NCBI GenBank assembly: GCA_946479515.1
Contig: CAMLGF010000010.1
Coordinates: forward strand, 20,274-84,273
DNA: 64,000 bases
Direction of reading: 5' to 3'
DNA from: an uncultured Pseudomonadota bacterium
GTDB taxonomy: Bacteria > Pseudomonadota > Gammaproteobacteria > Steroidobacterales > Steroidobacteraceae
The notes beneath the pieces were generated by a model that saw only the letters and a list, made by a program, of their open reading frames with translations, was not told where the DNA came from and searched no databases. This document shows positions 6,033 to 37,757 of the stretch, piece by piece. The position numbers were made by a program, and so were the translations under genes. How positions within the stretch are numbered: the stretch's first letter is position 1; each line of letters starts with the position of its first letter.

Positions 6033-6806
6033 ATGGCGCTGGAACTCACGACCGGACAGCTCGAAGGATGGGTGGCCCAGGCCTTCTTTCCGTTCGCGCG
6101 CATCGGCGCCTGCCTGATGGTGGCGCCGCTGTTCGGCGCGCGTTTCGTGCCGGCACGCACGCGCATCGTGCTGGCCGTGGCGCTGACCGCGCTGGTGGTG
6201 CCGCTGCTGCCTGCGCCCACGGTGACGCCGTTCTCCGGCCAGGGCTTCGTGGTCGTTGCCCAGCAGCTGCTCATCGGCGTCGCGCTGGGCTTCGCATTGC
6301 AGGTGGTGTTCGATGCGTTGGGCCTTGCCGGGCAGCTGCTGGCCAACAGCATGGGCCTGTCGTTCGCCTTCAACGTGGACCCGCTGCGCGGCAGCAGCAC
6401 CGCGGCGCTCGGCCAGTTGTACATCATCCTGGCAACGCTGGTGTTCCTGGCACTGGACGGGCATCTCGCGCTCGTCCAGGTGCTGGTGGACGGTTTCAAG
6501 CCCATGCCCATCGGCGCGGGGCTGTCGCACGACGCGCTCTGGGCCATCGTGATCTGGGGCGGCACGCTGTTCTCCGGCGCCATCTCCATCGCGCTGCCCG
6601 GCGTCACCGCGCTGCTGATCGTGAACCTCGCCTTCGGCGTGGTGTCGCGCGCGGCTCCCTCGCTCAACCTGTTCGCCGTCGGCTTCCCCATTTCGCTGGT
6701 CATCGGCCTGCTGGTCGTGCTCGCCGGCATGGGGCCGCTCATCGAGGGCATCGCGCAACTCATCGGCCAGGGACTCGCGTTCCTGCGCGAGCTGTCGGGA
6801 GTCTGA
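6033..6806 (+). CDS. fliR: Flagellar export gate protein FliR
   Basis: FliR is the single-copy subunit completing the FliPQR gate and contacts FlhB. The 257-residue product (E. coli 261) is polytopic with about six hydrophobic segments. FliR landmarks are visible: ARIGACLMVAPLFGARFVP near the N-terminus and the loop around GLSFAFNVDPLRGSSTAALGQ. The ATG at 6033 is chosen because similarity begins there (MALELTTGQLEGWV); the frame extends upstream only as a run-on through fliQ. The TGA is one base before the flhB GTG. Confidence 0.96.
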   Translation: MALELTTGQLEGWVAQAFFPFARIGACLMVAPLFGARFVPARTRIVLAVALTALVVPLLPAPTVTPFSGQGFVVVAQQLLIGVALGFALQVVFDALGLAGQLLANSMGLSFAFNVDPLRGSSTAALGQLYIILATLVFLALDGHLALVQVLVDGFKPMPIGAGLSHDALWAIVIWGGTLFSGAISIALPGVTALLIVNLAFGVVSRAAPSLNLFAVGFPISLVIGLLVVLAGMGPLIEGIAQLIGQGLAFLRELSGV

Positions 6807-11464: not shown

Positions 11465-12335
11465 CCAGTCACCTTCCGGTACGTTCGAGCGATTCGGCGT
11501 GCACCCGAACCCGGTTCAGGTCATCGCCGTCACCGGCGGCAAGGGCGGCGTCGGCAAGACCACGGTGGCGGTGAATCTCGCCGCGTCGCTGGCCTCGCGC
11601 GGCAAGGAAGTGATGCTGCTCGACGGCGATCTCGGGCTCGCCAACGTGGACGTCTTCCTCGGCATCACGCCCCGACTGACCCTGGCCGACGTGCTCGCGG
11701 GCACCTGCTCGCTCGAGGAGGCCGTCATGGACACGCCGCAGGGCTTCAAGGTCGTGCCGGCGGCCTCGGGCATCGCGCAGCTCGCCGAGCTCGACACGAT
11801 GACCCATCTCGGCCTGGTGCGCGCCTTCGGCGACATCAGCACCCGCCTGGACGTCATGGTGGTGGACACCGCGCCCGGCATTGCCGGCTCCGTGCTGCAG
11901 TTCTCGCAGGCGGCGCAGCAGGTGCTGGTGGTGATCTGCGACGAGCCGGCTTCGCTCACCGATGCGTATGCGCTCATAAAGATCCTGAGCCGCGATCACG
12001 GCGTGAAGCAGTTCCGCGTGCTGGTGAACCAGGTGCGCGGGCGGGGCTTGGGCCAGGCGCTGTTCCAGCGCTTCGAGCGCGTGGTCAACCGCTTCCTGCA
12101 GGTCGAGCTGGATTATGTCGGCGAGATTCCCGAAGACCCGTTCTTGCGGCGCGCAATCCGTGAACAGCGTCCCGTTGTGACCGGTTACCCGACCTGCCCT
12201 TCGGCCGTGGCTCTCAAGACGCTCGCGCTGCGGGCCGATATGTGGCCAGTGGCGGAAGGGCCCAGAGGCAACGTGGAGTTTTTCGTAGAGCGCCTGATCA
12301 GGCGACCGTCGGTTCGCCTCGAGGTGGTCCGATGA
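11454..12335 (+). CDS. flhG: Flagellar number regulator FlhG/FleN (MinD-like ATPase)
   Basis: FlhG (FleN) is a MinD/ParA-type ATPase that limits flagellar number, antagonises the FleQ-type activator and works with FlhF. The 293-residue product has the deviant Walker A TGGKGGVGKT near residue 25, the Walker A' segment LLDGDLGLANVDVFLG and VVDTAPG. The start at 11454 is chosen over an in-frame ATG at 11415 because AGGAG lies 6 bases upstream and the extra residues lack family similarity. It overlaps flhF by 11 bases and fliA by four (atga). Confidence 0.95.
   Translation: MAANQSPSGTFERFGVHPNPVQVIAVTGGKGGVGKTTVAVNLAASLASRGKEVMLLDGDLGLANVDVFLGITPRLTLADVLAGTCSLEEAVMDTPQGFKVVPAASGIAQLAELDTMTHLGLVRAFGDISTRLDVMVVDTAPGIAGSVLQFSQAAQQVLVVICDEPASLTDAYALIKILSRDHGVKQFRVLVNQVRGRGLGQALFQRFERVVNRFLQVELDYVGEIPEDPFLRRAIREQRPVVTGYPTCPSAVALKTLALRADMWPVAEGPRGNVEFFVERLIRRPSVRLEVVR
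12214..12240 (+). promoter_or_regulatory. Possible FliA promoter inside flhG, upstream of fliA
   Basis: TCAAG, 15 bases, then GCCGATA resembles the FliA-dependent consensus described for Pseudomonas (TCAAG and GCCGATA boxes). It ends 91 bases before the fliA start. It lies inside flhG with GCC-GAT in reading frame, and that dicodon is common in this genome, so chance is a real alternative. Confidence 0.28.
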
Positions 12336-13051
12336 GCGGAGTCAGCGCCTACAGCCAGCGCGCCAGTGCCCGGGAAACCGAAGCGCTGGTCATGCGCCAT
12401 GCCGAACTGGTCAAGCGCATCGCCTACCACCTGGCCGGCAGGTTGCCGGCGTCGGTCGAGGTCGACGATCTGATCCAGGCCGGCATGCTCGGGCTGCTCG
12501 AAGCCGCGTCGAATTATTCCGCCGGTCGTGGGGCGAGTTTCGAAACCTACGCCGGCATCCGTATCCGTGGCGCCATGCTCGACGGCTTGCGGAAGCTCGA
12601 TTGGGCGCCGCGCTCGGTGCATCGCAAGGCGCGCGCCGTGGCCAATGCCATCCGCGAACTGGAGGCCGAGATCGGCCGCGAGGCGCGCGACATGGACGTG
12701 GCGCAGAAGATGGGTGTGTCGCTCGACGAGTATCACAAGATCGTCGAGGACGCGGCGGGTTGCCAGATCGCCAGCCTCACCACCGAGGAAGGCGAGATCA
12801 ATGCCACCGACCCGGAAGCGGATCCGTTCCGCGACGTGATGGACGAGAGGTTTCGCGAGGCGCTGACCGAGGCGATCTCCGGTCTTCCGGACCGTGAGCG
12901 CACCGTGATGTCGCTGTACTACGACGACGAGCTGAATCTCAAGGAGATCGGCGCGGTGCTCAAGGTGAGCGAATCGCGCATCTGCCAGATCCACGGCCAG
13001 GCGCTGTCGCGCCTGCAGGCGCGGCTCTCCGGCTGGCGCGAGAGACTCTAG
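12332..13051 (+). CDS. fliA: Flagellar sigma factor FliA (sigma-28)
   Basis: FliA is the sigma factor for late flagellar and chemotaxis genes, held by the anti-sigma factor FlgM until the hook is complete. The 239-residue product (E. coli 239) has region 2 ([51 protein letters not shown]). It also has region 3 around [12 protein letters not shown], and region 4 with [21 protein letters not shown] and the helix-turn-helix [14 protein letters not shown]. The ATG at 12332 overlaps the flhG stop. At least one plausible target promoter lies in this window, in front of the second HDOD gene. Confidence 0.97.
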
Positions 13052-24260: not shown

Positions 24261-24776
24261 ATGCAGTCAGCCGCAGTCGCAACCCGCATCGTCGACGAGG
24301 CCGACGCGGCGAGCTTCGCCCAGTTCCTCACCTTCGTCTGCGCCGGCGAGGAGTATGGCGTGGCCATCCTGTGCGTTCAGGAGATCAAGGGCTGGGACGG
24401 CGTGACGCGCGTGCCCTACGCGCCAAGTTACCTGCTGGGGGTGATGAACCTGCGTGGCGTGATCGTGCCGGTGATCGATCTGCGCACGCGCTTCGGCCTG
24501 CAGGCGCGCCCGCCGGACAGTTCGAGCGTGGTCATCGTGGTGCGCGTGCACACCGAGCACGGCGAGAAGACCGCCGGCATCGTGGTCGACGCGGTGTCCG
24601 AGGTGTACAGCGTGGCGCCCGATAACATCAAGCCGACGCCGGAGCTCGGCGCGACCGCCGAGCGTGCCTGCGTGCGCAACCTGGCCAGCATCGATGACAA
24701 GATGGTCATGCTGCTCGACATCGACCGACTCGTGGCCACGTGCATCGCGGCGCCGGAGGCGGCAGGAAACCGCTGA
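24261..24776 (+). CDS. cheW: Chemotaxis coupling protein CheW (second copy)
   Basis: A second CheW-type adaptor of 171 residues, with FLTFVCAGEEYGVAILCVQEIKGW, YAPSYLLGVMNLRGVIVPVID and MVMLLDIDRLV. It differs clearly from the cheW at 19261 and sits directly after the cytoplasmic receptor, which may mean a receptor-specific coupler. The TGA overlaps the cheR ATG by one base. Confidence 0.95.
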   Translation: MQSAAVATRIVDEADAASFAQFLTFVCAGEEYGVAILCVQEIKGWDGVTRVPYAPSYLLGVMNLRGVIVPVIDLRTRFGLQARPPDSSSVVIVVRVHTEHGEKTAGIVVDAVSEVYSVAPDNIKPTPELGATAERACVRNLASIDDKMVMLLDIDRLVATCIAAPEAAGNR

Positions 24777-25642
24777 TGCAGCCCCAGGGTCCCAGTCCGC
24801 TCGCGGCGATCACCGGCGACTTCCAGTTGTCGCAGGCGGAGTTCGAGCGCATCCGCGTGCTGGTGCGCGAGCACACGGGCATTGCGTTGTCGGATGCCAA
24901 GCGCCAGCTGGTGTACGGACGCCTGTCGCGCCGGCTGCGCGCGCTCAAGCTGGGCAGCTTCTCCGAGTACATCAAGCTGCTCGAAAGGGGCGAGCCTGCC
25001 GAGCTGGAGGAATTCACCAACGCCGTCACCACCAACCTGACGTCGTTTTTCCGCGAGCCGCATCACTTCGAATACCTGGGGCAGGAAGTGCTGCCCGAGG
25101 CGCTCAAGCGCAACGCCGCCCTGCGCCGGATGCGCATCTGGTGCTGCGCAGCCTCGACCGGCGAGGAACCCTATTCCATCGCCATGGTGCTGCGCGAGGC
25201 GCGCGAGAAGCTCGTGGGCTGGGATGTGAAGCTGCTGGCCACCGATCTCGATTCGAACGTGCTGGCACATGGCCGGCGCGGCCTGTACTCGCCGGATCGC
25301 TTCAGCGGCATGGCGCCGAAGCGCGTCAGCCGGTTCTTCACGGACGTCGCCGAGCGCGGCGAGCGCAAACTCGCCGCCGGCGACGAGCTGCGCAGCCTGA
25401 TCACCTTCAGGCAGCTCAATCTCATGCACGAATGGCCCATGAAGGGACCGTTCGACGCCATTTTCTGCCGCAACGTCATCATCTATTTCGACAAGGACAC
25501 GCAGCGCGTGTTGTTCGAGCGCATGGCGGCGCTGCAGCGCCCCGGCGATTACCTGTTTCTCGGCCATTCGGAGAGCCTGTACCGGGTATGCGACCGCTAC
25601 GAGCTCATCGGCCGAACCATCTACCGGCGGCTGCCGGACTGA
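24776..25642 (+). CDS. cheR: Chemoreceptor methyltransferase CheR
   Basis: CheR uses S-adenosylmethionine to methylate receptor glutamates for adaptation. The 288-residue product has the N-terminal helical domain (~1-85) and the methyltransferase domain. The latter carries the SAM-binding motif CCAASTGEEPYS, LLATDLDSNVL and the late block FDAIFCRNVIIYFD. The start at 24776 lies one base inside the cheW stop and has SD aggaaa; a longer in-frame start at 24740 would overlap cheW without added similarity. Confidence 0.96.
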   Translation: MQPQGPSPLAAITGDFQLSQAEFERIRVLVREHTGIALSDAKRQLVYGRLSRRLRALKLGSFSEYIKLLERGEPAELEEFTNAVTTNLTSFFREPHHFEYLGQEVLPEALKRNAALRRMRIWCCAASTGEEPYSIAMVLREAREKLVGWDVKLLATDLDSNVLAHGRRGLYSPDRFSGMAPKRVSRFFTDVAERGERKLAAGDELRSLITFRQLNLMHEWPMKGPFDAIFCRNVIIYFDKDTQRVLFERMAALQRPGDYLFLGHSESLYRVCDRYELIGRTIYRRLPD

Positions 25643-25654
25643 CGGAACCCGACC

Positions 25655-26785
25655 ATGGCCAGCAAGAAGATCAAGGTACTCGTGATCGACGACTCGGCGC
25701 TGGTGCGCCAGATCCTGGTGCAGATTCTCAAGAGTGCGCACGACATGGAAGTGGTCGGCACGGCCAGCGATCCGTTCGTCGCGCGTGAACGTATCAAGGA
25801 GACCAACCCGGACGTGCTGACGCTGGACGTGGAAATGCCGCGCATGGACGGCATCACCTTCCTGGCAAACCTCATGCGCCTGCGGCCCATGCCGGTGGTC
25901 ATGGTGTCCTCACTCACGGAACGCGGCGCGGAGATCACGCTCAAGGCGCTCGAGCTGGGCGCGGTGGATTTCGTCTCCAAGCCCAAGGTGGACGTGGCCG
26001 GTACGCTGGCGGATTTCAGCGAGGAGATCCTCACGAAGATCCGCACCGCCGCCGGCGCGCGCGTGCATGCACGCCCGGGCGCCGCGGCGACGGTGCCACC
26101 CCGGAATTCCGCGGACGCCATCCTGCCCGCGGCCGGTGCGGTGTCCGGCGGAGCCGGCGCGGCTGCGCGCAAGATGCTGCGGACCACGGACCGCATCATC
26201 GCGGTGGGCGCGTCGACCGGTGGCACCGAGGCGATCCGCGAATTCCTCATGGGACTGCCGGCGGACTGTCCGGCCGTGGTGATCGCGCAGCACATACCCG
26301 CGGCCTTCAGCGCGCCGTTCACGCGCCGCATGGATTCCGTGTGCCGGCTCAGCGTCTGCGAGCCGCACGACGGCCAGTACATCATGCCCGGCCACGTGTA
26401 CATCGCGCCGGGCGGCAGGCATCTGCTGGTGGAGCGCGACGGCACCCGCTATCGCTGCCGCCTCAACGACGGCCCGCCGGTCAATCGCCATTGTCCGAGC
26501 GTCGACGTGCTGTTCCGCTCGGTGGCGCAGAAGGTGGGACCGAATGCCGTGGGCGTGATCCTCACCGGCATGGGCGACGACGGCGCCCGGGGTCTGAAGG
26601 AGATGCGCGACGCGGGCGCGCCCACGATCGCACAGGACGAGGCGAGCAGCGTGGTCTGGGGCATGCCCGGCGCCGCGGTGAAGCTGGGGGCGGTGCAGGA
26701 AGTCCTGCCGCTCGGCAAGGTGGCCGAGGCCGTGATGCGCCTCGCCGAGACGGCAGGCGCGCAATCGGTCGCCGCCGCCAACTGA
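25655..26785 (+). CDS. cheB: Chemotaxis methylesterase/deamidase CheB
   Basis: CheB demethylates and deamidates receptors and is activated by CheA. The 376-residue product has a receiver domain (1-~120) with phospho-acceptor D58, an Ala/Gly-rich linker (~130-175), and the methylesterase domain with catalytic S187 ([11 protein letters not shown]), H213 (AQHIP) and D309 (GMGDDGARG). All three catalytic residues are present. It follows cheR after 12 bases. Confidence 0.97.
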
Positions 26786-26801
26786 TGCAAGGGAGAGGAC
26801 G

Positions 26802-27164
26802 ATGACGAGAACGATCATGACCGTGGACGACTCCACGTCGATGCGGCAGATGGTGAAGGCCACGCTGCAGTCGGCCGGATATGGAGTAGTGGAAGCGGCC
26901 GACGGACAGGAAGCGCTCGACTACGCGCGTGAGAACTCCGTCGACCTCGTGATCTCCGACGTGAACATGCCGCGCATGGATGGCATCACGCTGGTGCACG
27001 AGCTGCGTGCGCTCTCCACCTACCGCCTCACGCCATTGCTGCTGCTGACCACCGAGTCCAGCCAGGAGAAGAAGCTGGAAGGCAAGCGAGCCGGCGCGAC
27101 CGGCTGGATCGTCAAACCTTTCAATCCGCAGCAGCTGCTGGCCACCCTGCAGAAACTGCTCTGA
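26802..27164 (+). CDS. Second CheY-like single-domain response regulator
   Basis: A 120-residue stand-alone receiver with the acidic pair D9-D10, phospho-acceptor D53, the TT pair of LLLLTTESS and Lys in WIVKPFNPQQ. It is closer to the CheY-like regulators placed beside cheB/cheD in F7-type clusters than to the cheY after fliA. It may be the motor regulator, a phosphate sink, or the output for another target; the sequence alone does not decide. The SD is GGGAGAGG. The CheZ-like gene directly downstream is a natural candidate phosphatase for it (inference). Confidence 0.88.
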   Translation: MTRTIMTVDDSTSMRQMVKATLQSAGYGVVEAADGQEALDYARENSVDLVISDVNMPRMDGITLVHELRALSTYRLTPLLLLTTESSQEKKLEGKRAGATGWIVKPFNPQQLLATLQKLL

Positions 27165-27175
27165 AGCCCGGCCTC

Positions 27176-27661
27176 ATGGACGAACCCGCCAACCGCCCCC
27201 TGGACACGCTGCCGCTCGCCGCGGTGCTCGAGCTGGTCGCCATGCAGCTCGAGGTGGCCATGCAGAACGCTGCCGCGCAGGCCGAACGGCTGTCGCAGTC
27301 GGTGGCGCAGTTCGCCTCGGTGGGGGCGCGTCTCGGTGCGCACACGCGTGCGAGCGGCGACACCGCGCTGGCCGAGCATGCCCAGGCCATCGAGGACGAG
27401 GCGGCGCGCGCGATGATGGCCATGCAGTTTCACGACCAGCTCACGCAGCGCGTGACCCATGTACGCGACGCGCTGGGCGATCTGCACGACGAGCTGCTCG
27501 GCGGCGGCACGCCCGACTGGACCGCGCTCGCGGCCAAGATGCGCGCGCACTACACCATGGAGGACGAGCGACGCTTGTTCGACCTGGTGATGTGGGCCTT
27601 CCCCGGCGCCACCGAGCGGCGCGACGAAGAATCGCTGACCAGCAGCGTGGAGTTGTTCTGA
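27176..27661 (+). CDS. Small helical protein with CheZ-like active-site pattern
   Basis: A 161-residue, mostly helical protein of unassigned function. Residues 83-94 read MQFHDQLTQRVT. This places D87 and Q91 with the same D-x-x-x-Q spacing and neighbouring hydrophobic pattern as the CheZ active site (MAQGYQDITGQ in the bona fide CheZ of this window). The C-terminus ends in SSVELF, sharing VELF with the next gene product, CheD. Located between a CheY-like receiver and cheD, it may be a compact CheY-P phosphatase. Family assignment is inference; full CheZ length (~210-255) and the usual C-terminal CheY-docking helix are absent. Confidence 0.6.
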   Translation: MDEPANRPLDTLPLAAVLELVAMQLEVAMQNAAAQAERLSQSVAQFASVGARLGAHTRASGDTALAEHAQAIEDEAARAMMAMQFHDQLTQRVTHVRDALGDLHDELLGGGTPDWTALAAKMRAHYTMEDERRLFDLVMWAFPGATERRDEESLTSSVELF

Positions 27662-27663
27662 GT

Positions 27664-28359
27664 ATGACCCGGAAGGTGGTCAGCACCGGGATTACGGGGC
27701 GGCACGGCAAGCTCGGGCGCGTGGCGCCCAACGACGCGCAGCCGCAGCCGGCGCTGCCGCAGTTCGCGCACATTTCACGCTATTGGGATTCCGAACATTC
27801 GACCTTCACGGCGCGCCTGCTGCCCGGCGAGTACTACGTGACGCGCCATGCGGAGACGATCGCCACGGTGCTGGGGTCATGCGTCTCGGCGTGCATACGC
27901 GATGCGCGCCTGGGCTATGGCGGCATGAACCATTTCATGCTGCCCCTCGACGGCTCGCTCGGGCTCAGTGCCTGGGGCGCGGCCAACACCGCCGCCACGC
28001 GCTATGGCAACGTGGCCATGGAACGACTCATCAACGACATCCTCAAGCTCGGCGGCCGGCGCGAGAACCTCGAGATCAAGCTGGTGGGCGGCGGCCGCGT
28101 GCTCGCCGACATGGCCACCGACATCGGCGCGCGCAACATCGCCTTCGTGCGCGAGTACGTGGCGGCCGAGGGCTTCAAGGTGTTGGGCGAGGACCTGGGC
28201 GACATCTTTCCGCGCAAGGTGGTGTACTTTCCGCAGACCGGCCGCATCCGCGTGCGCAAGCTGTCCGCCGGGCGCGACGACGCGCTGGCGGCGCGCGAGC
28301 GGCAGTATCTGCAGCAGCTCGACACCAAGCCGGTCGAGAACGAAGTCGAGCTCTTCTGA
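27664..28359 (+). CDS. cheD: Chemoreceptor glutamine deamidase CheD
   Basis: CheD deamidates receptor glutamines and in some bacteria works with CheC-type phosphatases. The 231-residue product has catalytic C73 (VLGSCVSACI) and H90 (GGMNHFMLP), 17 residues apart as in characterised CheD, and the GGGRVL motif. It is longer than the minimal enzyme (~157-200) through an N-terminal extension of ~40 residues and a C-terminal tail ending ENEVELF. The ATG at 27664 lies 2 bases after the preceding stop; the frame is open upstream but unrelated. Confidence 0.94.
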   Translation: MTRKVVSTGITGRHGKLGRVAPNDAQPQPALPQFAHISRYWDSEHSTFTARLLPGEYYVTRHAETIATVLGSCVSACIRDARLGYGGMNHFMLPLDGSLGLSAWGAANTAATRYGNVAMERLINDILKLGGRRENLEIKLVGGGRVLADMATDIGARNIAFVREYVAAEGFKVLGEDLGDIFPRKVVYFPQTGRIRVRKLSAGRDDALAARERQYLQQLDTKPVENEVELF

Positions 28360-28373
28360 GCGGCGGAGGCGGC

Positions 28374-29249
28374 ATGGCGAACGCGGCACTATCGGACGAG
28401 ACACGAATCACGCAAGCAGTCGACGAAGTCACCCAGGTGCTCACCGCCGAGCTGGCTGGCGATGCGCTCGATCTGCCGAGCTTCCCGGAGGTCGCCATGC
28501 GCGTGCGCAAGGCGCTGGCCAACCCCGACATCGGCCTCGACGACGTGGTGCGCATGGTGAGCGCCGAGCCGTCGCTGGCGGTGCGGCTGCTGCAGCTGGC
28601 GAATTCGGCCGCCCTGAATCCCTCCGGTCAGCGCATCACCACGTTGCGCGTCGCCATCGCGCGCATCGGCTTCAACCTGGCGCGCAGCGCGACCATCGCA
28701 TTCGCCATGTCGCAGATGCGGCGCGCGGATGCCTGGCGCGGGCTGGAGACTCGATTTCGCGAGCTGTGGGAGCAGAGCGCCACGCTGGCCGCGGTCAGTC
28801 ACGCGGTCGCGAAACGCGCGCGGGGCGTCAACGCCGACCAGGCCTTGTTCGCCGGCATGTTGCATGCGGTGGGCAGGTTGTTCGTGCTCACCCGCGTCAG
28901 CCGGCATCCGGTGCTGCTGAATTCCCAGGCGTACCATGATCTGGAGCACCATTGGCAGGCGCGGGTGACGCGTGCGCTGCTCACGCGCTGGGACGTCGGC
29001 GCCGACATCATCGCGGCCGCCAGCGACTTCGCGTCGGCCACCGAGCCACGGACCGGGCCGGCTGACCTGCGCGACGTGTTGTTCGCCGCCCGCTGCATCG
29101 TCGACCGGCCGCCCGGGGCAATGCCGGAGCCGCACCTCTTCCTGTCGGCGCCTTTCCAGCGGCTGTCATTCGATCCGGCGGCCTGCGACGAGATCCTGCA
29201 TGCCTCCGCCACGGAGGTCGCCTCGCTGCGGGCCGCGCTGATCGACTGA
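28374..29249 (+). CDS. HDOD-domain signalling protein 1
   Basis: HDOD domains are HD-superfamily relatives without catalytic metal ligands that act as signalling scaffolds; in Xanthomonas and others they affect motility and stress regulation. The 291-residue product is essentially one HDOD domain (~25-225) with LPSFPEVAMRVRKAL and LQLANSAALNPSG. At the HD position it reads H164-A165 (GMLHAVGRLF), so no active HD pair remains. It starts 14 bases after cheD and is probably co-transcribed with the che genes. It is the first of four paralogues in a row. Confidence 0.88.
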   Translation: MANAALSDETRITQAVDEVTQVLTAELAGDALDLPSFPEVAMRVRKALANPDIGLDDVVRMVSAEPSLAVRLLQLANSAALNPSGQRITTLRVAIARIGFNLARSATIAFAMSQMRRADAWRGLETRFRELWEQSATLAAVSHAVAKRARGVNADQALFAGMLHAVGRLFVLTRVSRHPVLLNSQAYHDLEHHWQARVTRALLTRWDVGADIIAAASDFASATEPRTGPADLRDVLFAARCIVDRPPGAMPEPHLFLSAPFQRLSFDPAACDEILHASATEVASLRAALID

Positions 29250-29360
29250 GCGCTTTACATATCGCGGCCGCATCGCCACCGCTGTAGGGGAGAGCGGCAG
29301 GCGGGGGCGGCAATTTCCGGGCACTTCGCCGTGCCGCACTCACATTCGCATGGCACGGGT

Positions 29361-29387
29361 TAAATCCCCGCTGCGCGTGACCGATAA
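29361..29387 (+). promoter_or_regulatory. FliA (sigma-28) promoter for HDOD2-HDOD4-sensor operon
   Basis: TAAA, exactly 15 bases, then ACCGATAA (29380-29387) matches the FliA consensus TAAA-N15-GCCGATAA with one mismatch. It is intergenic, in the 146-base gap after HDOD1, and the FliA gene is in the same window. The predicted transcription start (about 7 bases after the -10 box) falls at or within a couple of bases of the ATG at 29396, implying an essentially leaderless message. No other ORF occupies 29250-29395. Confidence 0.72.
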
Positions 29388-29395
29388 CCCACATC

Positions 29396-30304
29396 ATGAG
29401 CTTCGATTTCGTCTCAGCGCCGGGAGGTTCCGCGGACTCCGCGAGGGTCGCCGCGCGCGCGGCGGAAGCGGCGCGCCTGGTCCAGGCCCTGACCGTGGAG
29501 CTGGCGGGCGAAAAGATCGACCTGCCGAGCTTCCCCGAGGTGGCGGCCCGCGCCCGCAAGGCGCTCGCCAACGAGTTCGTCGAGATCGAGGACGTGGTGC
29601 GCATCATCAGCGCCGAGCCGGCCCTGGCCGCGCGCCTGCTGCAGCTCGCGAATTCGGCGGCGCTCAATTCCAGCGGCCGGCGCATCGCCGACCTGCGCCA
29701 GGCGCTGTCACGCATCGGCTTCAACATGGCGCGCAGCGCCACCATCGCCTTCGCCATGTCGCAGCTGCGGCGCGCCGAGGCGTACCGCGGCCTCGAGCCG
29801 CTGCTCGACGAACTGTGGCAGAGTTCGGCCCACGTCGCCGCCGTCAGCCACGTGGTCGCCCGGCGCTTCACGCGTGTGAACCAGGACACGGCACTGCTCG
29901 CCGGCCTGCTGGGCGGCATCGGCAAGCTCTATCTATTGACGCGGGCCGCGCGCTTCCCGGCCGTGCTCGCCGACGCGGCCACCTACCAGCGAATCGTGGC
30001 CGAACTGCACGGGCGCGTCTGCCAGGCGATCCTGCGCAACTGGGACATTCCCGAGGAAGTGGTCGATGCCGTTCTGGCCTGCGAGAACCATGATCGCGAG
30101 CACGAGGGCGCGACCGATCTCACCGACGTGTTGACCGTGGGCGCGGCGCTGGCGTCACTGGGGCCGAGCCCGGTGGCCGAACAGATGCTGTTCCTGGGCA
30201 TCCCGGCGGCGCGCCGCATGAAACTGGATGCCGACGCCTGCGTGGCCGCACTGCAGGAATCACACGAGGAGATCGTCTCCCTGCGCGCGGCGCTCGGCGA
30301 CTGA
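29396..30304 (+). CDS. HDOD-domain signalling protein 2
   Basis: A 302-residue HDOD paralogue with LPSFPEVAARARKAL and LLQLANSAALNSSGRRIADLRQ. The HD pair is replaced by G173-G174 (GLLGGIGKLY), so it is certainly non-catalytic as an HD phosphohydrolase. It is the first gene after the FliA-type promoter; no Shine-Dalgarno precedes the ATG, consistent with a leaderless start. HDOD3 begins 5 bases after its stop. Its target is unknown; the regulation predicts expression with the filament and chemotaxis genes. Confidence 0.88.
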   Translation: MSFDFVSAPGGSADSARVAARAAEAARLVQALTVELAGEKIDLPSFPEVAARARKALANEFVEIEDVVRIISAEPALAARLLQLANSAALNSSGRRIADLRQALSRIGFNMARSATIAFAMSQLRRAEAYRGLEPLLDELWQSSAHVAAVSHVVARRFTRVNQDTALLAGLLGGIGKLYLLTRAARFPAVLADAATYQRIVAELHGRVCQAILRNWDIPEEVVDAVLACENHDREHEGATDLTDVLTVGAALASLGPSPVAEQMLFLGIPAARRMKLDADACVAALQESHEEIVSLRAALGD

Positions 30305-30309
30305 ATGCC

Positions 30310-31209
30310 ATGAGCGCCTCTCCGGAAACCAGCAGCACCTCGACGGTGGAAATGCGCGCGCTGCCGAACACCGTGGTGTTCGGCTTCGTGAAGTCGCTGG
30401 CCGTCGAGCTGTCCAAGGGCCAGGTCGAACTGCCGTCCGTTCCCGAGGTGGTCATCAAGCTGCAGCGCACGCTGGCCGACGAGAACGTCAGCAACGAGAC
30501 CGTGGTGACGGTGGTGGGCGCCGAGCCCATGCTGGCCGGCAAGCTCATGAACATGGCCAATTCCGCGGCCCTGAATGCGTCGGGCCGCAAGATCGCCGAC
30601 CTGCGCACGGCCGTCGCGCGCGTCGGCTTCAACATCGTGCGCTCCGCGGCGCTGACCTTCGCGGTCGAGCAGTTGCGCAAGGTGGAGGAATTCCAGCAAC
30701 TGCGCGGCCCGCTGGACGCGCTGTGGCAGAACAGCGTGCAGGTCGCGGCGCTCTGCCACGTGCTGGCCCGCCGCTTCACCTCGCTCAATGGCGACGCGGC
30801 GCTGCTCGCCGGGCTGATGCACAACGTGGGGCGCATCTACATCCTCACGCGCGCCAGCAGGAACCCGGCGCTGATCGCGGACCGGCTGACGTACAACTCC
30901 ATGGTGCGCGACTGGCACGCCAACGTCGGCAAGGCGGTGCTGGAGAACTGGCGTGTCGCCGACGAGATCGTCGAGGCGGTGACCAACTACGAGGACCTTG
31001 ACCGCGAGGCGCGCGGGCCCGTGACACTCATCGACGTGCTGTCGCTGGCGGTGCTGCTCGAGCAGAAGAGCACGCAGACCTCGCCCGAGCCGGACGGGAA
31101 TTTTCTGAAGGGACTGAAGCGGCTGCAGCTGCAGCCGGGCGATTGCAGCAGCGTGCTCGCGGAGTCGGCGGACGAGATCGCCGCGCTCAAGGCGGCGCTG
31201 GGTGGTTAA
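30310..31209 (+). CDS. HDOD-domain signalling protein 3
   Basis: A 299-residue HDOD paralogue with VELPSVPEVVIKLQRTLADE, MNMANSAALNASGRKIADLRT and H171-N172 at the HD position (GLMHNVGRIY). The N-terminal 25 residues differ from its neighbours, so the copies have diverged outside the core. It lies 5 bases after HDOD2 and 21 bases before HDOD4, which indicates one operon. No enzymatic residues are seen; a protein-protein switching role is the family expectation. Confidence 0.88.
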   Translation: MSASPETSSTSTVEMRALPNTVVFGFVKSLAVELSKGQVELPSVPEVVIKLQRTLADENVSNETVVTVVGAEPMLAGKLMNMANSAALNASGRKIADLRTAVARVGFNIVRSAALTFAVEQLRKVEEFQQLRGPLDALWQNSVQVAALCHVLARRFTSLNGDAALLAGLMHNVGRIYILTRASRNPALIADRLTYNSMVRDWHANVGKAVLENWRVADEIVEAVTNYEDLDREARGPVTLIDVLSLAVLLEQKSTQTSPEPDGNFLKGLKRLQLQPGDCSSVLAESADEIAALKAALGG

Positions 31210-31230
31210 GGAAGGGACGCGGAGGAAAGC

Positions 31231-32121
31231 ATGCCGTCCATGGCGTTAGGGACGACCACGATCGAGAACATCGTCGCGCACGACGCGGCCGCGCTGGAGA
31301 AGGACCTGGCATCGATCCGCATGGATTCGCAGGTCATGCTCCCCGGCGTGCCGCAGATCGTCACGCGCCTGCAGCAGATGCTGAGCGATCCGGACGTGGG
31401 CATTCCACAGCTGATTCCGGTGATCAACTACGAGCCCATTCTCGTGGGCCGCGTGCTGCAGATGGCCAATTCCGCGGCCCTCAATCCAACGCGCCGGCAG
31501 GTGACGGACGTGCGCACCGGCATCACGCGCGTCGGCTTCGACCTGCTGCGCTCGGCCACGCTGGCCTATGCCATGCGCCAGCTCTCGCAGGCGCACTCGG
31601 TCAAGGACATCCGCCCGCATTTGGAGGCGCTCTGGGAGCGCAGCGCCTGGACTGCGGCAGTCTCTTACGTGATCGCCCGGAAGTTCACCCGGGTCAACCG
31701 CGACGTGGCTTTCCTGGGCGGGCTCATGCACGGCGTGGGAAAACTCTTCGTACTCACCCGGGCGGCGCATTTCCCCTTCGTGTTGCGCGATCGCACCAAA
31801 TACGCAGGCATGCTGCGCAAGTGGCACGCGCCGTTCGCCAAGGCTATTCTCAATGGCTGGCGCATCAACGCCGAGGTCATCGAGGCGGTGGTGCAGTACG
31901 AGAATCTCAACCGCGAAGTGGTCGGCGACGAGCCCGACCTCACCGACATCCTGGCCACCAGCTATCTCGTGGTCGGCCACACGGGTCGCATGCAGGATCT
32001 CTCCATGACGGTCGAGAAGATTGCCGCGTTCTCCCGCCTGCGGCTGGACATCATGGCGGTGGAAGAGACATTGGAGCAGTCTCGCGAAGAGATCGAAGAT
32101 CTGCGGCTGGCCCTGCGCTAG
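31231..32121 (+). CDS. HDOD-domain signalling protein 4
   Basis: A 296-residue HDOD paralogue with VMLPGVPQIVTRLQQMLSDP, LQMANSAALNPTRRQVTDV and H167-G168 in place of HD (GLMHGVGKLF). The core helices align with the three preceding genes throughout. It is 21 bases upstream of the large sensor gene, which begins with GTG, and has SD ggaggaa. Three HDODs with one sensor in a FliA-type unit suggest they act together (inference). Confidence 0.88.
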   Translation: MPSMALGTTTIENIVAHDAAALEKDLASIRMDSQVMLPGVPQIVTRLQQMLSDPDVGIPQLIPVINYEPILVGRVLQMANSAALNPTRRQVTDVRTGITRVGFDLLRSATLAYAMRQLSQAHSVKDIRPHLEALWERSAWTAAVSYVIARKFTRVNRDVAFLGGLMHGVGKLFVLTRAAHFPFVLRDRTKYAGMLRKWHAPFAKAILNGWRINAEVIEAVVQYENLNREVVGDEPDLTDILATSYLVVGHTGRMQDLSMTVEKIAAFSRLRLDIMAVEETLEQSREEIEDLRLALR

Positions 32122-32142
32122 TCCGTCTTCCGCCACGCTTCC

Positions 32143-35100
32143 GTGACCAGGTACCTCGCGAACACAGCACTGCTGGCGGTTCTCTACTTCTTCGCCGGAA
32201 AGCTCGGGTTGATGCTGGCATTGCCGCCGGGCTATGCCACGGTCATCTGGCCTCCGTCCGGCATCGTGCTCGGCATGTTGTTGCTGCACGGGCGGGGCCT
32301 GGCGCCCGGCGCGTTCCTGGGCTCGTTCCTGCTGAATGCCATGGTCGGCCATGCACCGCACGACCTGCCCACGGCGCGCGAGCTGCTGCTGGCGGGCAGC
32401 ATCGCGGCCGGTTCGACGATGCAGGCGCTGCTGGGCCATGCGCTGATCGTGCGCTGGTTCGGCTCTCCGGTTCGTCTACGCGAACTCGCCGACGTGGTGC
32501 GATTGCTCGCGATGGCGGTGCCGATCGCCTGCCTGGTGTCGCCCACGGTTGGCGTGCTGTCGCTGTACGGCATGGCAGGATTGCAGGGCGACTACGCCGC
32601 CAACTGGCTCACGTGGTGGTCGGGCGACATGTTCGGTGTGCTGGTGTTCATGCCGCTGACGCTGGTCATGAGCCGCCGCACCGCGCTGATGTGGCGCGAT
32701 CGTCCCGTGCAGGGCGTGCATGCCGTCAGCCTGATGTTGCTGGTGCTGCCGCTCGGGCTCACCTTCATCGCCTGGAAATCCTTGTCGGAGACCAGCTACC
32801 GGCAGAGCCAGGCGCATTTCGAATCGCTCGCGCGGGAGAGTGAGCAGGCGCTGGCTACGCGGCTGGCGGCCTATGCCAGCGCGCTGCGCAGCGGGGCGGG
32901 CATCGTCCAGAGCTCGGTGTTCGTCTCGCGGGAGGAATGGCGCACGTTCATCGACGCGCTGCGACTGCGCGAGGACTATCCAGGCTTGCTCGGGTTGGGC
33001 TGGATCGAGCGCGAGCCTTCCGCCACCGCGCCGCGCGACGTGGTGAAGTACCTGGAGCCCGGCGCCGTCGGCGGGGCGGCCGTGAGCGAAGACGTGAATG
33101 CGCAGCCCCTGTTCCGCGACGCGGCGAGTCGCGCCGGCGCCTCCGGTCTGCCGGCGATGACGAAGTCGCTCAGGCTGGGCCACGACGAGGAATTCGCGCC
33201 AGGATTCCTGCTGCTGCAGCCGGTTTACCGCCCGGGAATGCCGCTGGCGGATGCGAAGCAGCGGCTGGCCGCCCTGCGCGGCTTCGTATTCGCGCCGTTT
33301 CAGGCTCGCGGTCTGCTGGCCGATCTCACACCGAGCCAGGGCCGTCGCCTGGACGTGACGCTGTCACGAGACGACGCGCCCTTGTTCAGCACGCGCGTGG
33401 GCGATCGAACCGCGCGCTTCAGCGTGCGGCGGGATTTTCCGGCCTTCGGCGTCACCTGGCAGCTGGAGTGGAGCAGCACGGTGGAGTTCGAACGCACCGA
33501 AAGCCGCGGCGGCGCGAACTTCGTGTTGTTCGGCGGGTTGCTGTTCACGGGCTTGTTCGCGGTTCTGCTGGTGGTGTTTGGCCGGCGCACGCCTGCCGTG
33601 GAGGCCAGCGGTCCGCTGGAACAGCCGTGGATACTGCCGCTCGCCACTTTCGCGCTGGTGGCCGGCGGCAGCCTGGCCGCCTGGGCGTTGCTGTCGAGCG
33701 CGGAGCGTGCGCACTTGAGCTCGCAGGTCGATGCCGAGACACGCCGGCTCGAGGCGGATCTCGAGCGCTCGGTGCGCGATCGCCTGCAGGTGGTGCGCCG
33801 CATGGCGCATCGCTGGTCGGCTGGCGGCGGCACGCCCTACGTCGTGTGGCGCAACGACGCGCGCGACCTGACGCGCCAGATCGTCGGCCTGGAGCAGCTG
33901 CAGTGGATAGGCCCTGACTACTACCTGCACTGGTCCGAGGGTGTGCGGCGACACGGCTGGTTTCAGGGCACCGACGTGCGCATCGATGCCGGGCGCGCGC
34001 GGCGGCTGGCGGCAAGCGCGGAGCGCGGCCTGACCTACCTGACCGAGCCGCGGGAGATCGCCCCCGGCGAGTCCGCGTTCATGGCCTTCGTGCCGGTGAC
34101 CCGCGACGGCCGGTTCGACGGCTTCATCGTCGCGACCTTCGCGCTGCGCGAGCTGTTCGGCGACGTGCTCGAATCGTCGGCCGGCGACGAGTTCGCATTT
34201 GCCGTGCAGTATGACGGCCATACCTATTTCGACGACGCCGGAACCGCGGCGGCGGATCGCACCTGGCAGCACGAGGGCGCCTTCAAGGTGGATGAGCGCC
34301 GCTGGACGTTCACCGTCAATCCGACACAGCGATTCGTCGACGAGCAGCAGAGCTGGCTGCCGCGAATCGTGGCTGTCACCGGCCTGCTGATCGCATTCCT
34401 GTCCGCGTTCCTGGTGCGCTATGTGCTCGCCTCGCGGCTCCGGGCGGTGCGGTTGCAGGCTTCGGCGCAGGCCCTGAGCGCCAGCGAAGAGCGCCATGAA
34501 CTTGCCATGCGCGGCATGAGCGTCGGCCTGTGGGATTGGGACGTGTGCACCAATGCCGTGTTCCTCTCGCCGCGCGCGCGCGCCATGATCGGCATGACCA
34601 CGCCCGATGTCGCGCCGAACTTCACGGGCTTCCTCGCGCGACTGCACCCCGACGATCGCGTGCGCGTCGAGCGCGCGCTGAACGGGCATCTCAAGCAGCA
34701 GAATCCATTCGACGTCGAGCTGCGCCTGCGTCGCGACGACGGCGAGTACCTCTGGGTGCACATCTGCGGCCAGGCGCAGTACGACGCCCAGGGTTTCGCG
34801 CTGCGCATGGCGGGGTCGATGCAGGACATCGCCGCCCGCAAGCGCCAGGAGCAGAAGCTAGAGCGCTCCGAGGCCCAGCTGCGCCTGCTGGTGGAGAACG
34901 CGCCCGCGGCGGTCGCGATGCTGGACAGGGACATGCGCTATCTGATGACCAGCCGGCGCTGGCTGCAGGACTATGGCCTGGAGAGCCGCGACATCATCGG
35001 CCTGAGTCACTACGACGTGTTCCCGGAGATCCGCGGCATGCCGCGATGGCTGGACATCCACCAGCGCGCGCTGCGGGGCGAGCGCTTCGACATGCGCGAA

Positions 35101-36309
35101 GATTCCTGGACGCGCGCGGATGGCCAGACGGAATGGAATCTCTGGGCCATCCATCCGTGGATCGGTGCGGACGGCGAAGTGGGTGGCATCGTCATGTTCA
35201 CGGAGGTGATCACCGCCCGCAAGCGCGCCGAGGAGGCTCTGCGCGCCACCGAGGCGATGAATCGCGCCGCCATCGACAAGGCACCCATCGGCAAGGCGCT
35301 GGTGTTGCCGGACGGAACCTTCCTGAGGGTGAACCTCGCGTTGTGCCAGCTGCTCGGTTACAGCGAGGACGAGATGTTGAGCCGCGACTTCCAGAGCATC
35401 ACCCATCCCGACGATCTGGCGAGCAACCTGGTCGAGATGCGCGCGCTCGTCGAGGGGCGCTCCACCAGCTACCGGACGGAGAAGCGCTACTTCCATCGCG
35501 ATGGCCGCGTGATCTGGGCGGTGCTCAGCGTGTCGCCGGTGCGGCGCGCGGATGGCAGCGTGGATTTCCTGGTGGCGCAGATCCAGGACATCACCGAGCG
35601 CAAGAACATCGAACGCATGACGGACGAGTTCGCCGCGGTGGTGGGCAGCGAATTGCGCGCGCCGCTGCTGTCGATCCGGGATGCGCTGGGCGAGATGGCC
35701 GCGTCGCGCGAGCTGGCGATGACCGCCCAGCTGCAGCGCCTGTTCGATACCTGCCGCGCCGGCTGCGAGCGCGTGAATGCACTGGTGGAGGAGATGGCGG
35801 ATCTCGAGAAGCTGGCCACCGGGCAGATGCGATTCGACTTCCGGGACGAAGCCATCGCGATCATCACGCGCCAGGCCGTGGCGGTGAACGAGGCGTTCGC
35901 GCGAATTGCCCTGGGCGACATCGATCCGTTGCTCATGGTCTACGTGGACCCGGCGCGTTACGGGCAGGCGCTGGCGAACCTGCTGTCCAACGCCGCCCGG
36001 TTCTCGCCTCCGGGCAGTCCCATCGAGGTGCGCGTCGAAGCGCGCGAGGACTGGGTGCGCGTCTCGGTGCGTGACCACGGGCAGGGCATTCCCGAGGAGT
36101 TTCGCGCGCGCATCTTCGGCAAGTTCGCGCACCCGGCTTCCGCCACCGGACGGCAGAAGGCAGGCGCCGGCCTCGGCCTGTATCTCACCCGGCAGTTGGT
36201 GGAGCAGATGCGCGGAACCATCGGCTTCGTCAGCCAGGCAGGAGCGGGCAGCACGTTCTGGATGGAATTCCCGCGGGTCTCTCGCGGCGTCCATCGGCTG
36301 TCGGCCTGA
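32143..36309 (+). CDS. MASE1-CHASE-PAS sensor with degenerate histidine-kinase core
   Basis: A 1388-residue membrane sensor. Layout: MASE1-type membrane domain (~1-185, TVIWPPSGIVLGMLL); CHASE-like periplasmic domain (~230-450); TMs near 460-480 and 496-520; a second periplasmic sensory domain (~530-735); TM ~739-762; three PAS domains (~781-905, 909-1035, 1040-1155); dimerisation/phospho-acceptor helix (~1159-1230); ATPase domain (~1265-1380). The H-box reads VVGSELRAPL, so Ser1169 replaces the phosphorylated His of SHELRTPL. The N box (LLSNAARFSPPG), G1 (DHGQGIPEE), F and G2 (GAGLGLYL) boxes are intact. It therefore looks like an ATP-binding pseudokinase. It starts at GTG, 21 bases after HDOD4. 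Confidence 0.9.
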   Translation: MTRYLANTALLAVLYFFAGKLGLMLALPPGYATVIWPPSGIVLGMLLLHGRGLAPGAFLGSFLLNAMVGHAPHDLPTARELLLAGSIAAGSTMQALLGHALIVRWFGSPVRLRELADVVRLLAMAVPIACLVSPTVGVLSLYGMAGLQGDYAANWLTWWSGDMFGVLVFMPLTLVMSRRTALMWRDRPVQGVHAVSLMLLVLPLGLTFIAWKSLSETSYRQSQAHFESLARESEQALATRLAAYASALRSGAGIVQSSVFVSREEWRTFIDALRLREDYPGLLGLGWIEREPSATAPRDVVKYLEPGAVGGAAVSEDVNAQPLFRDAASRAGASGLPAMTKSLRLGHDEEFAPGFLLLQPVYRPGMPLADAKQRLAALRGFVFAPFQARGLLADLTPSQGRRLDVTLSRDDAPLFSTRVGDRTARFSVRRDFPAFGVTWQLEWSSTVEFERTESRGGANFVLFGGLLFTGLFAVLLVVFGRRTPAVEASGPLEQPWILPLATFALVAGGSLAAWALLSSAERAHLSSQVDAETRRLEADLERSVRDRLQVVRRMAHRWSAGGGTPYVVWRNDARDLTRQIVGLEQLQWIGPDYYLHWSEGVRRHGWFQGTDVRIDAGRARRLAASAERGLTYLTEPREIAPGESAFMAFVPVTRDGRFDGFIVATFALRELFGDVLESSAGDEFAFAVQYDGHTYFDDAGTAAADRTWQHEGAFKVDERRWTFTVNPTQRFVDEQQSWLPRIVAVTGLLIAFLSAFLVRYVLASRLRAVRLQASAQALSASEERHELAMRGMSVGLWDWDVCTNAVFLSPRARAMIGMTTPDVAPNFTGFLARLHPDDRVRVERALNGHLKQQNPFDVELRLRRDDGEYLWVHICGQAQYDAQGFALRMAGSMQDIAARKRQEQKLERSEAQLRLLVENAPAAVAMLDRDMRYLMTSRRWLQDYGLESRDIIGLSHYDVFPEIRGMPRWLDIHQRALRGERFDMREDSWTRADGQTEWNLWAIHPWIGADGEVGGIVMFTEVITARKRAEEALRATEAMNRAAIDKAPIGKALVLPDGTFLRVNLALCQLLGYSEDEMLSRDFQSITHPDDLASNLVEMRALVEGRSTSYRTEKRYFHRDGRVIWAVLSVSPVRRADGSVDFLVAQIQDITERKNIERMTDEFAAVVGSELRAPLLSIRDALGEMAASRELAMTAQLQRLFDTCRAGCERVNALVEEMADLEKLATGQMRFDFRDEAIAIITRQAVAVNEAFARIALGDIDPLLMVYVDPARYGQALANLLSNAARFSPPGSPIEVRVEAREDWVRVSVRDHGQGIPEEFRARIFGKFAHPASATGRQKAGAGLGLYLTRQLVEQMRGTIGFVSQAGAGSTFWMEFPRVSRGVHRLSA

Positions 36310-36344
36310 GTCGGCCGAGCTCGGGGGCTGGCGAGCGGAATGCG

Positions 36345-36375
36345 TTAGGCCACATACTGGCGGGACACTTATATA
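36345..36375 (+). promoter_or_regulatory. Candidate promoter before the gamma-glutamyl pathway operon
   Basis: An AT-rich island, ACTTATATATA around 36366-36376, stands out in GC-rich surroundings, 15 bases before the ATG at 36391. A weak TTAGGC box lies 19 bases upstream of TATATA. Spacing is longer than ideal, so only the -10 is reasonably convincing. There is no obvious Shine-Dalgarno in the short leader. Confidence 0.3.
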
Positions 36376-36390
36376 TAGGGCCCGACTGGT

Positions 36391-37757
<1,367 letters not shown>

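Follow-up and report, generated by a model that had tools for sequence, protein, structure and literature searches.

A 64-kb stretch of DNA from an uncultured gammaproteobacterium (positions 20,274 to 84,273 of contig CAMLGF010000010.1; the whole stretch, at its full length, is referred to as the window) carries three tandem HDOD genes, HDOD2, HDOD3 and HDOD4, followed by a gene for a large membrane sensor. We suggest that HDOD2-4 are accessory chemotaxis or flagellar proteins that would be made under the control of FliA (sigma-28) and would act by binding, and that the sensor is a repurposed kinase, an add-on to the array, which would signal by contact. We give this reading a probability of about 0.5.

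All of these genes are on the forward strand: HDOD2 (29396..30304; 302 aa), HDOD3 (30310..31209; 299 aa), HDOD4 (31231..32121; 296 aa) and the sensor gene (32143..36309; 1388 aa). They are spaced 5, 21 and 21 bp apart and lie behind a FliA-type promoter, TAAA-N15-ACCGATAA, at 29361..29387 of the same strand. A preliminary description of this DNA had given these genes, gaps and promoter, and all agree with the coordinates. A fourth gene, HDOD1 (28374..29249, forward strand; 291 aa), was outside that description; it begins 14 bp after cheD and lies before the promoter.

HDOD proteins as components of chemotaxis loci

HDOD1 to HDOD4 match Pfam family PF08668 with 104.6-119.6 bits, where the cut-off is 22.9 (E-values of 2e-33, 4.5e-34, 1.5e-34 and 6.4e-30, in that order). 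The HD position was placed by eye using what we take to be the HD motif; the residues found there are HA, GG, HN and HG, with Asp absent from all four proteins. The absence of a catalytic HD pair, which had been pointed out before, is therefore borne out, but it is usual for HDOD domains and not peculiar to this locus. There is also no Pfam match to a receiver domain in HDOD1-4. Because HDOD2-4 have neither the catalytic pair nor a receiver domain, they most likely act through binding, without catalysis.

HDOD4 is the most conserved of the HDODs, at 95, 86 and 83% identity in the related loci L001, L036 and L002. Its conservation in L001 is close to that of cheB (90%) and of the cheY-like gene (98%); HDOD1 is 68% and the sensor pieces are 66-68% identical between the window and L001. 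A quick tree, which gave long-branch warnings, was made from 62 HDODs of 31 of the 103 pieces described below, with one translation of less than 230 residues omitted. HDOD3 and HDOD4 each form one clade with single copies in L001, L036, L002 and L072 (SH-aLRT 99 and 99), and HDOD1 and HDOD2 share one clade (96). The first copy of L036 groups with HDOD2 (98) and that of L002 with HDOD1 (95). On the basis of the HDOD3 and HDOD4 orthologue clades, the three-HDOD array is common to five genomes: that of the window, G001, G085, G002 and G084.

Of the 217 genomes of the family to which G001 belongs, 118 contain an HDOD4 match at E<=1e-40. Our survey consists of 103 pieces, which are the window and a single piece from each of 102 of these 118; the other 16 had no listed place, and 11 of them were fetched later and kept outside the 103. 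A che/mot-cluster gene, defined as a che, mot, receptor or DUF2802 gene, ends within 700 bp upstream of the first HDOD on the same strand in 72 of the 103 pieces, and in 41 the upstream gene is cheB. Tandem HDODs are found in 49 pieces, 46 of which are among the 72. An upstream che/mot-cluster gene at this distance (within 700 bp) is also found in seven of the 11 pieces fetched later. HDODs behind che/mot genes are thus a feature of the family, and from this gene context HDOD2-4 are best read as chemotaxis or motility components. Separately, nine pieces from eight genomes of the same order, outside the 217, were inspected; in five of them (L156, L157, L158, L160 and L162) a single HDOD gene and a cheY-cheA block point away from each other.

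FliA-type promoter and predicted leaderless start

The promoter at 29361-29387 is the sole perfect FliA-type match within the window. It differs by one substitution (A for G) from TAAA-N15-GCCGATAA, which we take to be the FliA consensus. When up to two mismatches are allowed, the window has five matches, compared with 0.90 expected, and five were reached in none of 100 shuffles; TAAA occurs four times on the forward strand of the window (67.7% GC). A fliA-like gene (12242..13051, forward strand) with sigma-70 regions 2, 3 and 4 is present in the flagellar cluster of the window. This is the open reading frame as called, and its true start may be internal. It is 91% identical to the L036 copy, which is situated between matches to flhG and motC.

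The site is kept, with altered spacers, before HDOD2 in the window and L001 and before the HDOD2 orthologue in L036. The L002 version is degenerate, TCAA-N15-ACCGATAA. Among the 103 pieces, 41 have a site scoring >=10 before the first HDOD, compared with 2 of 740 dinucleotide shuffles and 89 of 2060 windows drawn at random from these pieces (Fisher tests, 7e-39 and 7e-26, both too optimistic since the genomes are related). Shuffling was done ten times on each of the 74 regions in which a che/mot-cluster gene lies no more than 1500 bp upstream. Later HDODs have such a site in 4 of 56 cases, three of which are the second HDOD of the window, L001 and L002. HDOD1 of the window and L001 lies 5' of the site, on the cheD side. 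From the conservation of the site and its enrichment before first HDODs, we infer that FliA would transcribe HDOD2-4, and we predict that this transcription would reach all four genes from HDOD2 to the sensor. The FliA control proposed earlier is upheld as a prediction, and membership in the late-flagellar and chemotaxis genes, also proposed, agrees with the synteny in relatives.

The HDOD2 ATG is located 8 nt after the -10 box. In the window and L001 there is an in-frame stop just upstream, and this ATG is thus the first possible ordinary start. The bases between the box and the ATG are CCCACATC in the window, CCAACATC in L001 and CCACTGC in L036. Over the first 30 codons of HDOD2, the window and L001 have 20 differences, with 3, 4 and 13 at codon positions 1, 2 and 3. 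Transcription starts about 6-8 nt after the -10 box, so the 5' end of the mRNA would fall on the HDOD2 ATG or right beside it, and FliA transcripts of HDOD2 are predicted to be leaderless. By eye, this ATG has no Shine-Dalgarno sequence; HDOD4 has one (GGAGGAAAGC-ATG).

An in-frame ATG 7-8 nt after the -10 box is found at 10 of the 45 sites scoring >=10 (window, L001, L036, L102, L110, L118, L124, L128, L129 and L130), and the first start is 24-26 nt after the box at 15 of the 45. The ten include similar sequences and so represent fewer independent cases, and in most of them the frame is open further upstream, where an earlier start is possible. This recurring gap predicts leaderless sigma-28 transcripts. 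HDOD2 is missing in L002; read by eye, the sequence that follows the degenerate FliA site there (about 6063-6179) still encodes 38 residues in frame, a remnant whose tail resembles that of HDOD2.

In all four loci (window, L001, L036 and L002), a second conserved element, with the pattern TTKACATAT, lies at or after the end of the preceding gene, whatever that gene is, and ahead of the FliA site. It is TTTACATATCGC in the window (29254..29265, forward strand) and is at position 8043 in L001, 8254 in L036 and 5981 in L002. The box was counted by pattern, since an alignment of the upstream regions failed to line up the copies of L036 and L002. The pattern also occurs once in each of four other pieces among 123 scanned.

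A sensor kinase with a repeatedly lost phospho-acceptor

According to Pfam, the sensor consists of MASE1 and CHASE, a second segment, three PAS domains, a degenerate HisKA and HATPase_c. The HisKA match is below the cut-off (19.6 versus 26.9 bits). The second segment (33703-34392) has no convincing Pfam match and was judged by eye to be flanked by hydrophobic stretches. A single-sequence fold of the sensor core had a mean pLDDT of 52 and was not used. The phospho-acceptor position is occupied by Ser1169, within VVGSELRAPL, in accordance with the previously noted absence of the acceptor His, and the N, G1, F and G2 boxes are intact.

The loss of the acceptor is not confined to the window. Our alignment comprised the best 77 of the 120 homologues considered, together with the window and L001 copies, while the 43 weakest were dropped; the 120 were themselves the best of 1689 homologues (for HDOD4, the best 120 of 373 and of 583 were considered). 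Within the clade of the window sensor, which has 45 members including two very close pairs (P0005/P0126 and P0133/L001), the acceptor His is replaced in 29, by N in 10, Q in 9, S in 4, R in 3 and D in 3. It is kept in the other 16 and in all 34 aligned relatives outside the clade. To our knowledge, N, Q and R cannot replace His as a phosphate carrier. The Thr four residues after the His, which we take to be the phosphatase position, is absent in 27 of the 29 His-less and 9 of the 16 His-bearing members. No replacement His is conserved above 30% at residues 1150-1267 of the His-less members. A tree of 55 of the 79 aligned rows requires at least seven changes between His and another residue; if His was never regained, 12 separate groups without it can be counted by eye, and fewer if unresolved forks are merged.

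The ATP site is kept in the same proteins. All 45 members have the second N-box Asn, the G1 Asp, Gly and Gly, the two Phe of the F box and the two Gly of the G2 box, and the first N-box Asn is kept in 41. Among the His-less members, the PAS2, PAS3 and ATP-binding domains have pairwise identities of 0.69-0.72. Because the acceptor His has repeatedly been lost and the ATP-site residues have been kept, the demand for phosphotransfer has been relaxed in this clade and the nucleotide site retained. This agrees with the earlier proposal that the sensor carries out no ordinary phosphotransfer. Judged from these residues, the sensor would be a repurposed sensor kinase, comparable to DivL, which presumably binds ATP and signals without catalysis.

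The sensor is directly behind HDOD4, in the same slot and on the same strand, in the window and L001. Adjacency to the chemotaxis locus is seen in these two and is absent in L036 and L002. Among the 217 family genomes, with two candidates scored per genome, only G001 has a match at E<=1e-120, and G002 has none at E<=1e-50 among all 70 candidates scored. The preliminary description regarded the three HDODs and the sensor as one system and called for a search of genomes for this gene order. We found the order of the three HDODs in five genomes, and that part of the proposal stands. The sensor was found in only two of the five, the window and G001; the G084 contig stops some 190 bp past HDOD4, and the slot lies beyond its end. 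A four-gene module as a fixed unit is rejected, since the sensor is missing in G085 and G002. We therefore read the sensor as a lineage-restricted, fast-diverging accessory layer on a conserved HDOD array, which in the window is probably co-transcribed with the HDODs. Clusters of sensor sequences and of HDOD4 sequences coincide in three longest-contig sizes (10913, 7970 and 12486) and in the source labels that go with them, and the acceptor residues there are N, N and H. This suggests that the pair recurs in metagenomes, with both His-less and His-bearing kinds near HDOD4. As a separate observation, the GTG start of the sensor gene has no obvious Shine-Dalgarno sequence, unlike the start of HDOD4, which hints at low or coupled translation.

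Proposed mechanism and alternative explanations

We propose that HDOD2-4 are made late in flagellar assembly from the FliA promoter, probably as leaderless transcripts. The HDOD helical domain would dock on a chemotaxis or motor partner, which could be on the CheA/CheW/receptor side, CheB or the switch. The docking would alter swimming, an effect that single HDOD proteins have in other bacteria; from those proteins, together with the synteny and the FliA-like promoter, we infer a motility function for HDOD2-4. The sensor would be a membrane receptor (MASE1, CHASE and PAS) that binds ATP with no autophosphorylation at the usual site. It would signal through a change of shape and by touching other proteins, the HDODs of the same transcript being the most economical target. 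This contact is a guess, made because the genes are likely co-transcribed, the HDODs have no receiver and the sensor no donor His. A bolder version, which we regard as unlikely, is that the family (probably Steroidobacteraceae) has a second, phosphotransfer-free arm of chemotaxis, in which leaderless late-flagellar mRNAs supply non-catalytic HDOD adaptors along with the flagella, and that in one lineage an ATP-binding, His-less MASE1/CHASE/PAS receptor sets their state by contact. If this is true, signals from the environment would get to the motor with no His-Asp phosphorelay in between.

Several findings weigh against the reading we prefer. There is no che/mot-cluster gene within 700 bp in 31 of the 103 pieces, though four of the 31 have less than 900 bp of upstream sequence, and L047 and L072 have motD at 890 and 791 bp. 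The pieces come from related genomes and are not independent. No above-threshold site precedes the first HDOD in 62 of the 103; the window, L001 and L002 are counted among the 62, as their site precedes the second HDOD. The site is equally frequent without a che/mot-cluster gene within 1500 bp (11 of 29) and with one (30 of 74), and so it goes with the HDOD and not with the neighbourhood. In 28 of 49 regions upstream of cheD, a FliA-pattern lookalike is found in a conserved coding stretch of cheR. It was rejected as a promoter because it is cheR coding sequence, and it means that the FliA pattern alone can mislead. As for the sensor, G085 and G002 carry other genes between HDOD4 and the glutamine-synthetase-like gene, so the HDODs can do without the sensor. 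No clear Shine-Dalgarno sequence accompanies its GTG start (32143-32200), so it may be poorly made. Since DivL binds ATP only weakly, the kept boxes do not prove that the sensor binds ATP. The dimerization and histidine phosphotransfer (DHp) domain is the least conserved of eight segments in the His-less members (0.48 pairwise versus 0.69 for the ATP-binding domain), so a conserved docking face like that of DivL is not favoured.

Some of these points lead to a different view of the sensor, namely that its gene is an accessory one with no relation to the HDODs, which happens to have landed between HDOD4 and the glutamine-synthetase-like operon, with the HDODs independent and the sensor signalling elsewhere. 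We hold this to be quite possible, if on the doubtful side. Its scarcity in the family, the other genes that fill the slot in G085 and G002, the lack of a clear Shine-Dalgarno sequence, and an identity to the L001 copy that is below that of most neighbours, HDOD1 excepted, are all what an insertion would lead one to expect. The identical slot and strand in the window and L001, the common contig sizes and labels that suggest a recurring pair, and the lack of a convincing terminator between HDOD4 and the sensor argue for an association. It is also conceivable, but somewhat unlikely, that the sensor still takes part in phosphotransfer, either by pairing with another kinase and using its own ATP-binding domain to phosphorylate the His of that partner, or by tuning such a kinase. 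The eight invariant ATP-site residues are consistent with this, and a laboratory-evolved ChrS pseudokinase acts through the kinase HrrS, and the native proteins form heterodimers, according to the available text of that report (PMC9491836). In that case it is the ATP-binding domain that is broken, not the His (PMC9491836). The window proteins given to Pfam include no other HisKA-type kinase, although CheA and CheY-like genes are present. Moreover, DivL keeps its boxes without kinase activity and binds ATP weakly, as reported in the accessible part of PMC4211667, so conservation alone is no proof of catalysis.

The remaining two explanations have less in their favour. HDOD2-4 and the sensor could be expressed mainly by read-through from a cheR-cheB-cheD-HDOD1 operon, with the FliA-like site weak or inactive. 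HDOD1 and cheD lie close together in one orientation, and between HDOD1 and HDOD2 there is no convincing terminator, but the site is retained while most of the 146-bp gap around it varies among related loci, and an ATG that by eye has no Shine-Dalgarno sequence fits a leaderless mRNA better; we therefore consider read-through quite unlikely. That the sensor is decaying towards a pseudogene is highly improbable. Decay would fit the recurrent disappearance of the acceptor His and of the Thr at His+4, but not the full-length open frame or the well-conserved PAS2, PAS3 and ATP-binding domains of the His-less members; we rejected it in view of the unchanged ATP-site residues.

Comparison with known systems

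HDOD proteins that affect motility and pseudo-histidine kinases are both already known. PSPTO_4229 of Pseudomonas syringae DC3000 resembles HDOD2-4 in being a stand-alone HDOD of similar length (273 aa), and it requires its last 80 residues for structure or function (PMC11813219). Its deletion and its over-expression both lower swimming, and its fitness profile is like that of che genes (PMC11813219). It differs in that the available text of that paper describes no array, sensor or FliA promoter, and the word FliA is absent from its main text. GsmR of Xanthomonas campestris is likewise an HDOD protein without the active-site His or enzymatic activity and affects flagellar genes, as stated in the accessible parts of PMC4114195 and PMC6543031; it is called a response regulator there, whereas HDOD1-4 matched no receiver domain. 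SadB also contains an HDOD, acts on motility and is reported to bind c-di-GMP, but it has an additional YbaK-like domain and is a negative regulator of motility, with no FliA operon described in the text available (PMC6543031). Swimming phenotypes of single HDOD proteins are also described in PMC11004494, in the part available, where GsmR, CJ0248 and SadB are named as well. In the same literature, as far as its accessible text goes, the function, mechanism or partner of the HDOD domain is called unknown (PMC11004494, PMC11813219 and PMC6543031). Solved HDOD structures that are sequence relatives of HDOD3 (E 5e-26 to 5e-6) include 3i7a, 3hc1, 3m1t and MmoQ (3p3q/3ljx); we know them by their depositors' names, and 3ljx is called a response regulator by its depositors.

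The sensor is similar to DivL of Caulobacter in having PAS domains and a core of DHp and ATP-binding (CA) domains, in which the acceptor His is replaced and the other kinase boxes are kept. In DivL the replacement is Tyr, and the protein has no kinase or phosphatase activity (PMC4211667, in its accessible part). DivL homologues there have Tyr, with one Ala, while the sensor clade has N, Q, S, R and D and still has H in 16 of 45. The sensor also has MASE1 and CHASE as input domains, and the two proteins are likened by features, not by kinship.

We found no description of a FliA-driven HDOD array in chemotaxis loci, or of an HDOD-sensor unit, in titles and the openings of abstracts, a search in which subscription journals were thinly covered. 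HDODs that recur in chemotaxis loci with FliA-like promoters point to where the partner of these proteins should be sought. The sensor clade provides a natural series of H, N, Q, S, R and D at the acceptor site with the ATP pocket almost untouched. This series makes the role of a kinase core without phosphotransfer directly testable.

Gene neighbourhood

The window is a flagellar and chemotaxis region, probably from a member of the Steroidobacteraceae, a name borne by close HDOD4 homologues (P0011 and P0053). Its gene order starts with fliL and fliM, followed further on by flhA, flhF, flhG, fliA, cheY, cheZ, motC, motD and a DUF2802 gene, and continues with cheA, cheW, two receptors, cheW, cheR, cheB, a cheY-like gene, a 161-aa gene, cheD, HDOD1-4 and the sensor. 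The names fliL, fliM, flhA, flhF, flhG, cheY, cheZ, motC, motD and cheB were given from position and first residues, without a family search. The block from cheR to cheD (24740..28359, forward strand) is directly 5' of the HDODs. The 161-aa gene in this block (27176-27661), between the cheY-like gene and cheD, has no match in Pfam or NCBIfam, and its relatives occupy this block too in L001, L002 and further pieces of the family.

Between 28000 and 37000 no sigma-70-type promoter was found, and there is one terminator-like match, compared with a mean of 3.7 in shuffles. No near-identical match to 28000-36500 was found in plasmids, and Rfam at gathering thresholds has no match anywhere in the window. 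Downstream of the sensor are the glutamine-synthetase-like gene and then an aldehyde dehydrogenase gene. The NCBIfam matches of the former are below their cut-offs, with gamma-glutamylputrescine synthetase among them. Before this gene, the stretches CACATACTGG and TATATATA are common to 36350-36400 of the window and 15090-15150 of L001.

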